Origin: an uncultured Erysipelotrichaceae bacterium
GTDB taxonomy: Bacteria > Bacillota_I > Bacilli_A > RFN20 > CAG-826
Direction of reading: 5' to 3'
Assembly: GCA_902791935.1 (NCBI GenBank)
Contig: CADAXQ010000001.1
Location: forward strand, 1-32,954
DNA length: 32,954 nucleotides
Below are positions 6,783-9,552 of this stretch, one piece after another. Position 1 is the first letter of the stretch; every line of letters begins with the position of its first letter. The position numbers and the translations under genes were made by a program. The notes beneath the pieces are model-generated. The model did not search any database and had not been told where the DNA came from. It was given only the letters and a program-made list of their open reading frames with translations.

Positions 6783-6812
6783 AAAAAAGCACCTCCCAAA
6801 AGGAGATGCCTT
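6783..6812 (-). terminator. terminator of the LRR transcription unit
   Basis: On the minus strand AAGGCATCTCC pairs with GGAGGTGCTTT (11 bp, two G-U pairs) around a 5-base loop, and TTTTTT follows. The 249-bp element lies between it and the LRR stop codon, so the element is probably carried in the 3' UTR of the LRR mRNA. Confidence 0.8.
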
Positions 6813-6824
6813 CTAAGTTTAACG

Positions 6825-7073
6825 GGCTCTGTAACTTCTAAGGTGGTTGGCTTTTTGACTAACCACCTTGTTTGTTACGGCTTTCGACGGTTTGCCGCGG
6901 GGGCGCTTTCGCGAAAAGCCCGCGCCTGAGAGCCTCTTCCGAGACAGGTAGCCGGTGCCGGGTCTTACGGCAAGGAAAAGGCCGCCCTCGCGGACGGCCT
7001 TGGGCCAAACCACCTCATGGTTACAGCTTCGAGCGGTCGGTTTCGCTCCAACCACCTTAAAAGTTACAGAGCC
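6825..7073. mobile_element. MITE-like element with 26-bp terminal inverted repeats
   Basis: The ends (6825-6850 and 7048-7073) are inverted copies matching at 25 of 26 bases, both beginning GGCTCTGTAACTT. The GGCTCT tip and length resemble ISL3-family insertion sequence ends (from memory, not checked). Two more copies of the GTAAC...AAGGTGGTT core lie inside, at 6859-6880 and 7005-7026. No transposase is encoded. The interior is far richer in G+C than its surroundings and forms several strong hairpins, for example GGCCGTCC/GGGCGGCC near 6980-7000, a Gly/Cys-type GC stem near 6895-6925, and an inner TTGCCG/CGGCAA stem. Flanking octamers (gtttaacg and gttattct) are not a clean target duplication. 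It could instead be a structured RNA closed by a 26-bp helix. Confidence 0.5.
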
Positions 7074-7074
7074 G

Positions 7075-9552
7075 TTATTCTTCGGCCCAAACCACGTCGT
7101 TATTCGTGTTGCCGTCATAGAAGACACCATCATCCGTCGTGTAATGCTCATCGGCGTAGCCTTGGGTGAACTCGCAAGAAACGGTGCCATCAAAGTCAGC
7201 AAACGCATCATATTGGATGTAAGCTAAAGTATTCGGAACCGTTAAGGTTTCAAGCGAATCGCAACTCGCCCAAATGCTGCCACCTTCTAGGCGGACGGCG
7301 CCTGAACCAAATGAGAATTCGCTTAATTCCGTGTCGGAGTCAAAGGCACTGCCGCCGATTGTGACGGCCGCATCATCAATCGTTACGCTCGTGAGACTTT
7401 CACAATAAGCAAATGAAGAGTCGCCGATGGAAGTCACGTTGGAAGGTAACGTCAATGCGGTTAACTTTGTGCCATAGAATGCTTCATAACCAATCGTAGT
7501 CACATGGCTTAAATCGATAGATGTGATCTTTCGTCCATTAAAGGCGCTCACGGCAATTGAAGTCACACCGCTAGGAAGCGCGGGAGTCGCCACGTCCCCA
7601 GCATAAGACAAAACCGAGGTTCCATCGCTAGAAAGATAGTAATCACCGGATGTTTTGACCTGAGATTCCGTGTAATAACCAAGTTGGGTGAATGAAGAAT
7701 ATGCTTTCTTTAAGGAAGCAAGCGCAGTGTCGTTATCGGCAATGAGGATGCGTTCTTGACTGTCATAAAAGAGACTCGACAAGTTTTGTGAGCTTGTAAC
7801 GGCATTGCCATTGGCGTCAAGATAGGAGATAGAAGAGAAGTCATCCCCATGAAATCTTACCGCAGCCAAGGAAGTGAGTTTGCTAAAGCAACGATAGCCA
7901 AACGTCTTTACGCTGGAAGGAATGATGAGTTCTTTGATTTCACTATGATTGGCGAAAGCATTCGGCGCAATCGTGGTGATGGAAGAAGGAATTTCCACGA
8001 TGGCGTCTTCTGTTCCGGTATAAGACGTTAAAGTCTTCCCATCGCTAGAGACGACAAACATATCGGGGATTCCTACGATGATGCTGTCAGCGTGGCTAGC
8101 CCAAGCGGCTTTTAACGCGGTTTGTGTTTCCGCATCATCGACGGCAATTAACGGCATATATTGCTGTTCTCCTAAGGTTGGGTACGTCGTGACACCCTCA
8201 TCAAAATGTACTTTCATGGTCGTCAAGGCATCACAATTATGGAATGCGTTGTCCCCGATTGAGGCGGCATCTTGGAATGTCAATTCAAGGCCGGTTAAAA
8301 CCTCGTCGCCGTTAAAGGCTTGCTTCCCAACGGATTTTAACGAAGAAGAGAAGGTAATGGTCGTCAAAACAGGGTTATAGGCCAACATGCGGTCCGAAAC
8401 GGCCGTCACTCGTTTTGGCAAGGCGATTGAAGTTAGTTTAGATAAAGAAGAGAAGGCTAAAGTATCGATGGTAAGAGGAGAATCGCTTTCTTCAAATGTC
8501 ACAGAAGTAAGCGCGGCACTTTGGAAGGCATTCGTTTCGATGTGAATGATTTTGCGAGAAATGGTGATTCCTTTAAGCGCGCTATGCATAAAGGCATAAT
8601 CGCCAATATCCGTCACGTTCGCTAAATCGGCGGAAGTAAGAGAGGTATAGGCAAATGCGCCTGTGCCAATCTTGGTTACGCTTTCGGGCAAGGTGAAACT
8701 GGTTCCTTCTTTAGCGCGTGGATAAGAAACAATCTCTGTTTTACCCGCATTATAGAGAACGCCATCAACAACGGTGAACGACTTGTTCCCTTGCGTCACC
8801 GAATACGAAGCAAGTTGAGGGATATCGCCATAAGAAACGTAAGATTCCAAACTTGCGGGGAATGTCAAAGTGGTCAATGCCGTATTGCGGAAGGCAAACT
8901 CATCAATGGTCTTTAAACCTTCAGGTAAGGTGATGGAAGCAAGCGCTGCATCATCAGAGAAAGCATACATCTCGATATTCTCGACTTTTCCAAGTTCAAC
9001 CGACCTTAACAAAGGAAGATTGGAACAGGCATAGTGGCCCAGTGTCTTTGTTTCGACAAACGTCAGTTTTTCTAATGTTGAGACATCGGATAACGCATAG
9101 TCTGGGACCGTTTCTTGATTCGTGATGGTGACAGATTTCAATGTCTTCGGGAGGAAGTCTTTTTGCACCTGACGCATTGCGATACCGAAAGCTTCACCTA
9201 AATAGCCGCTTTCTTCCTCGGCAGAAAGACCGACAAATGGGATTGTCAGATTTTCGATTGCCGTCAAGGGAAGGAAAGCGGTCGAGCCAATGCTCGTCAC
9301 CGACGAAGGAATCGTGAGTTTCGTGATTTCTGCACCGTATTTGACGAAGGCGTCCGCTCCGATCGCAATGACGGGAAGATTCCGATACGTCGAAGGAATC
9401 GAAACTTCAGCGCCTTGCGATTGATGGAGAGCAACCAAGGTGTAGCCCGTCGCATCTTCATTGATTTTGTATTCGAATTGATAAGCTTTCCAATGCCCTT
9501 TTAAAATCATGGACTTGGTCACCGTCGTAGCGCCCGACGCATAATAAACCAC
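7075..9552 (-). CDS. BspA-type leucine-rich repeat surface protein, main part
   Basis: A run of LRR_5 (BspA-like) repeats of about 23 residues fills this frame, with recurring elements such as SSVTSIGSTAF, LPESVTKIGTGAF, LPSNVTSIGDSSF and IPSSITTIAPNAF. Such proteins are secreted or surface-bound and mediate adhesion or binding in gut and oral bacteria. The GTG at 9552 is only the first start in this frame. The frame is open further upstream (reading GDIIRLGQYSIVGDEETEYWTDESG) and joins the lipoprotein signal part if one base is removed from the A7 run at 9634-9628, giving about 920 residues in total. The C-terminus ends DVVWAEE without a sortase or membrane anchor, so anchoring depends on the N-terminal lipid. 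The stop is 1 base from the 249-bp inverted-repeat element. Confidence 0.85.
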   Translation of the reverse strand: MVYYASGATTVTKSMILKGHWKAYQFEYKINEDATGYTLVALHQSQGAEVSIPSTYRNLPVIAIGADAFVKYGAEITKLTIPSSVTSIGSTAFLPLTAIENLTIPFVGLSAEEESGYLGEAFGIAMRQVQKDFLPKTLKSVTITNQETVPDYALSDVSTLEKLTFVETKTLGHYACSNLPLLRSVELGKVENIEMYAFSDDAALASITLPEGLKTIDEFAFRNTALTTLTFPASLESYVSYGDIPQLASYSVTQGNKSFTVVDGVLYNAGKTEIVSYPRAKEGTSFTLPESVTKIGTGAFAYTSLTSADLANVTDIGDYAFMHSALKGITISRKIIHIETNAFQSAALTSVTFEESDSPLTIDTLAFSSLSKLTSIALPKRVTAVSDRMLAYNPVLTTITFSSSLKSVGKQAFNGDEVLTGLELTFQDAASIGDNAFHNCDALTTMKVHFDEGVTTYPTLGEQQYMPLIAVDDAETQTALKAAWASHADSIIVGIPDMFVVSSDGKTLTSYTGTEDAIVEIPSSITTIAPNAFANHSEIKELIIPSSVKTFGYRCFSKLTSLAAVRFHGDDFSSISYLDANGNAVTSSQNLSSLFYDSQERILIADNDTALASLKKAYSSFTQLGYYTESQVKTSGDYYLSSDGTSVLSYAGDVATPALPSGVTSIAVSAFNGRKITSIDLSHVTTIGYEAFYGTKLTALTLPSNVTSIGDSSFAYCESLTSVTIDDAAVTIGGSAFDSDTELSEFSFGSGAVRLEGGSIWASCDSLETLTVPNTLAYIQYDAFADFDGTVSCEFTQGYADEHYTTDDGVFYDGNTNNDVVWAEE

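Follow-up and report, generated by a model that had tools for sequence, protein, structure and literature searches.

A 249-bp element behind a leucine-rich-repeat gene of an uncultured Erysipelotrichaceae bacterium, very probably a miniature derivative of an ISL3-family insertion sequence

The stretch of DNA analysed here (the window; 32,954 nucleotides) comes from a rumen-type bacterium and carries a 249-bp element that follows the stop codon, and precedes the terminator, of a surface-protein gene, which encodes a BspA-type leucine-rich-repeat (LRR) protein. Comparison of its sequence with insertion sequences of related bacteria makes it very probable that this is a miniature, non-autonomous derivative of an insertion sequence of the ISL3 family, in which both ends survive and the transposase is lost. 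The window element is a decaying mobile-DNA remnant of an ordinary kind. Its parts, its surroundings and the ISL3-type ends found directly behind terminators elsewhere are located in Table 1.

Table 1. Features of the element and its surroundings (window coordinates unless a locus is given)
Feature	Position	Strand	Basis
Whole non-autonomous ISL3-derived element (very probable)	6825..7073	-	Inverted ends, copies, end alignments
Left end, transposase-upstream end of ISL3 insertion sequence, ~69 bp	6825..6893	+	Local alignment, alignment A2
Left terminal inverted repeat GGCTCTGTAACTTCTAAGGTGGTTGG	6825..6850	+	End comparison; order-wide pattern search
Left-end hairpin, terminal repeat plus inverted copy; terminator-like reading inwards	6839..6870	+	Terminator scan; conserved in alignment A2
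Central GC-rich (70%) stretch, single copy	6894..6974	.	Genome, ISL3 DNA and transposase comparisons
Right end, transposase-downstream end of ISL3 insertion sequence, ~99 bp	6975..7073	-	Local alignment, alignment A1
GC hairpin AAGGCCGTCCGCGAGGGCGGCCTT then TTTT, intrinsic-terminator-like in LRR sense	6976..7001	-	Sequence; kept in relatives
Subterminal core copy (GCTGTAACCATGAGGTGGTT), direct relative to right end, conserved in all right ends	~7008..7027	-	Sequence, alignment A1
Right terminal inverted repeat GGCTCTGTAACTTTTAAGGTGGTTGG	7048..7073	-	End comparison; order-wide pattern search
Host gene, BspA-type leucine-rich-repeat protein, 825 aa	7075..9552	-	PF13306 E 2e-85; ORF
Presumed original intrinsic terminator of LRR gene, now beyond element	6788..6817	-	Terminator scan (site 6817-6795), sequence
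ISL3-type ends directly behind terminator T-tract	L009 1883, L045 1676, L035 2975, L039 1996, L033 1196, L066 3435		

The 26-bp ends match at 25 of 26 positions in inverted orientation; by our own arithmetic, a 250-bp stretch would contain such an end pair by chance with a probability of the order of 1e-9. Two further copies of the GTAAC...AGGTGGTT core lie inside the element, one at 6861–6878, inverted relative to the left end, and the other in the right end. This conserved second core at each end, inverted on the left and direct on the right, suggests that each end may offer several binding sites. An earlier note, made from the letters of this DNA alone, had described the inverted ends, the two inner cores and strong GC hairpins in the interior, and all were borne out by end comparison, by the positions of the cores and by folding: minus-strand RNA of the element folds at -132 kcal/mol, with z = -5.8 relative to shuffles.

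The same note had likened the GGCTCT tips to ISL3 ends and considered a MITE. The likeness was found to reach well past the 26-bp repeats on both sides, over about 70–100 bp, and to involve ISL3 elements from the same bacterial family. In local alignments, the left end scored 91 against the left end in genome G108 (shuffle maximum, 26) and 79 against that in G104 (maximum, 28); the right end scored 82 against G108 and 65 against G033 (maximum, 26 in both cases), and 141 against a copy in the bacterium's own genome (C15). In G108 (locus L069), the terminal pattern stands 137 bp upstream of a 424-aa transposase that scores 196 bits with NF033550 transpos_ISL3 (NCBIfam cut-off, 180 bits) and E 1e-38 with PF01610, and 3' of this transposase gene stand a GC hairpin and a right-end sequence shared with the window. 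In G104 (L045) the left end likewise precedes another ISL3 transposase, and in G033 (L028) the right end comes after what is left of a transposase. The two ends in the window are thus distinct, asymmetric ISL3 ends. With up to two mismatches allowed, the pattern GGCTCTGTAACNTNTANGGTGGTT was present in 8 of 279 genomes from the order, whereas the reversed control gave no match, and the terminal pattern was found several times beside PF01610 transposases, which were above cut-off in 10 of the 61 genomes searched. In a scan of public genomes, exact matches came from two records: RUG13633, an uncultured Erysipelotrichaceae MAG, and RUI057, a Bacilli MAG.

The earlier note had held the nested stems to be equally compatible with a structured RNA. 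The very stable fold would agree with this, as would the changes that relatives show in both arms of the hairpins, both in the left-end hairpin (five sequences, alignment A2) and in the right-end GC hairpin, where pairing is kept (six sequences, alignment A1). The same ends, however, flank ISL3 transposase genes, the element is missing from nearly all relatives, no Rfam family reached its gathering score (the best matches were sub-threshold), and the pairing is accounted for by terminator hairpins and inverted repeats alone. Paired changes occur in the ends of insertion sequences, where they fit terminators and end palindromes, and a separate RNA function is not required. A dedicated structured RNA is unlikely, and a conserved regulatory 3'-UTR or sRNA, under selection as RNA and like a mobile element in appearance only, is very unlikely.

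The stop codon of the LRR gene (TAA, 7077–7075) is separated from the element by one base (C, 7074); the earlier placement of the element, one base after the stop and before a terminator, agrees with the coordinates and with the terminator scan. In transposase sense the element would read on the plus strand, left end first, and the right end is the side on which LRR transcription enters. The GC content of the element is 58% (left end 45%, middle 70%, right end 59%). A/T-rich flanks had been described around it; the contrast is real on the left, where the flank has 32%, but uneven, the right flank of LRR coding DNA having 50%. The LRR C-terminus (codons for DVVW) had also been said to resemble the repeat core, and 7084–7098 does match 7002–7016 at 13 of 15 positions. 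This likeness is best taken as chance, because it is a single short match and C-termini vary among LRR relatives. A 130-aa ORF (6819–7211, minus strand) runs through the entire element; it is likely spurious, and comparable false ORFs are to be expected at the other copies.

As its GC hairpin and TTTT read in the LRR sense, the present effect of the right end is likely to be transcription termination or folding of the 3'-UTR, and termination of the LRR transcript at this hairpin, ~75–100 nt past the stop codon, would be plausible. It could be supposed, compatibly with an ISL3 origin, that the host adopted the element as terminator of the LRR gene and kept it for that role. The orientation of the hairpin would suit this, and the solo right end C15 and the right end on contig C32 of G108 also follow genes in the same orientation. 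Adoption nevertheless appears doubtful: the original LRR terminator is still there, the copies are few and decaying, and just 4 T follow the GC stem, which is absent from the list of the terminator scan. The hairpins of both ends face inwards, and the left-end one is listed by the scan.

In 6 of the 18 distinct ISL3-type insertions examined, an end lies 3–14 nt past a terminator-like stem that has a T-tract. In the same loci such spots account, per strand, for 0.8% of positions overall and for 1.5% of those that are AT-rich; because the set is small and hand-picked and the background includes coding DNA, the comparison is a lead only. Terminators are a possible target preference of these insertion sequences. 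Unlike those six, the window insertion lies in front of the LRR terminator and not behind it. A broader proposal would be that the ISL3 elements of this family prefer to insert at intrinsic terminators and the 3' ends of genes, and that each of their own two ends has a terminator facing inwards, their derivatives spreading portable terminators. We give this little credence; if true, solo right ends and miniature derivatives would replace or reinforce the terminators of host genes, for example that of the LRR gene. The wider interest of the element goes no further than this hint of a bias of the insertion sequences towards terminators.

Against an ISL3 derivative speak the lack of a target-site duplication in the window, a middle without ISL3 match, a copy number of three and the failure to find an empty site. 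ISL3 transposases work on terminal inverted repeats and leave 8-bp duplications; such a duplication is expected for an ISL3-derived MITE and is often lost in old copies. Two contigs of G108, one with a left end and one with a right end, share the 8-mer TTAAAAGA; we infer that they flank a single insertion, in which the element would stand between the copies of an 8-bp duplication. An ISL3 element in G005 has TTCTTTTG on both sides (8/8). No duplication was seen at the window element, where GTTTAACG and GTTATTCT agree at 4 of 8 positions; the insertion is therefore likely to be old or rearranged. The missing duplication makes a recent, intact insertion less likely, without doing so for an ISL3 origin.

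The middle ~81 bp matched neither ISL3 DNA nor, in six frames, the transposase, nor any other part of the bacterium's own genome, and a simple internal deletion therefore does not account for the whole element. Since no intact DDE transposase gene lies between the ends and the middle is not transposase, the element is not an autonomous ISL3 insertion sequence. A composite could be envisaged instead, in which solo left and solo right ISL3 relics happen to enclose an unrelated GC-rich stretch of ~81 bp and never moved as a unit. The unrelated middle and the absent duplication are consistent with such an assembly, and solo ends are known (C15, G108 C32). The two ends, however, stand in the right order and inverted, with near-identical tips (25/26), and the copy C34, ~200 bp long, has the same right-end/left-end architecture, which makes a composite rather unlikely.

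The bacterium's own genome (1.93 Mb in 54 contigs, 92% complete) holds three related copies, all different, two of them partial or degraded. The copy at C15:26316–26434 consists of a right end alone and closely follows the stop codon of a hydrolase-like ORF; that at C34:16884–17086 is degraded but has both ends in the same arrangement as in the window, and lies behind rpoC and the rpoC terminator. The earlier note would have given up its reading for a single copy in all genomes with neither covariation nor likeness to any insertion sequence end; what was found is three copies and ISL3 ends. The whole element was found in none of 60 relatives, phage, plasmid and viral collections gave no match, and no empty site could be found among LRR relatives, which are themselves only ~30–50% identical. 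A 27-bp match in G025 was rejected, as it covers a terminator-like hairpin only, without ISL3 tips, and covariance-model matches of 20–43 bits in other genera were weak, were taken as chance hairpins and were not used.

No ISL3 transposase was detectable in the bacterium's own genome by PF01610 search, although the gene could be missing from an assembly that is ~92% complete. Because of this, and because the target duplication decayed or never formed, the window element is probably immobile now.

Other short forms were observed among relatives. In G036, of the same genus as the window genome, a 291-bp both-ended element (L039 1706–1996) keeps a fragment of an ISL3 transposase C-terminus and derives, by an independent deletion, from another branch of ISL3. 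Still smaller miniature elements, of 69–71 bp, in G106 (L065 3272–3342 and L066 3435–3503) have ISL3-like tips facing each other and no clear duplications. At L071 4066–4100 of G108, a truncated tip (GGCTCTGTAACTTCT) lies directly against another that differs slightly from it (GGCTCTCTAAACTC), which suggests that one ISL3 element inserted beside the end of another.

For the preferred reading, a miniature ISL3 derivative, the following course may be proposed. An ISL3 transposase would have bound the repeated cores in both ends and moved the element in trans, and the insertion would have fallen between the LRR stop codon and the LRR terminator. The target duplication would then have decayed, or would never have formed, and the element would have been left immobile. 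The right-end hairpin with its TTTT would now terminate or fold the LRR messenger upstream of the original terminator.

What is gained is an ISL3-derived miniature element, from an uncultured lineage of Bacilli, and the anatomy of the two ends in this branch of ISL3, with terminal and subterminal cores and one hairpin per end. This aids annotation, as with the probably spurious 130-aa ORF. With ISL3-family insertion sequences (NF033550, PF01610) the element has in common the GGCTCT tips and the end structure; in those of relatives the transposase adjoins the same ends and 8-bp duplications are present, whereas the window element is without both and has, within its 249 bp, a middle of ~81 bp with no ISL3 counterpart. 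Like bacterial MITEs, it is short, non-coding, intergenic, bounded by terminal inverted repeats, very stably folded and derived from an insertion sequence, but here there are only three diverged copies and no visible recent amplification; a review of bacterial MITEs (PMC10969869) does not mention ISL3. The SPRITE, BOX and RUP repeats of pneumococcus, named in the same review (PMC10969869), are also small interspersed elements, some with terminator-like hairpins; this likeness is one of description, with no sequence relation claimed, and the element described here is traceable to ISL3 ends.
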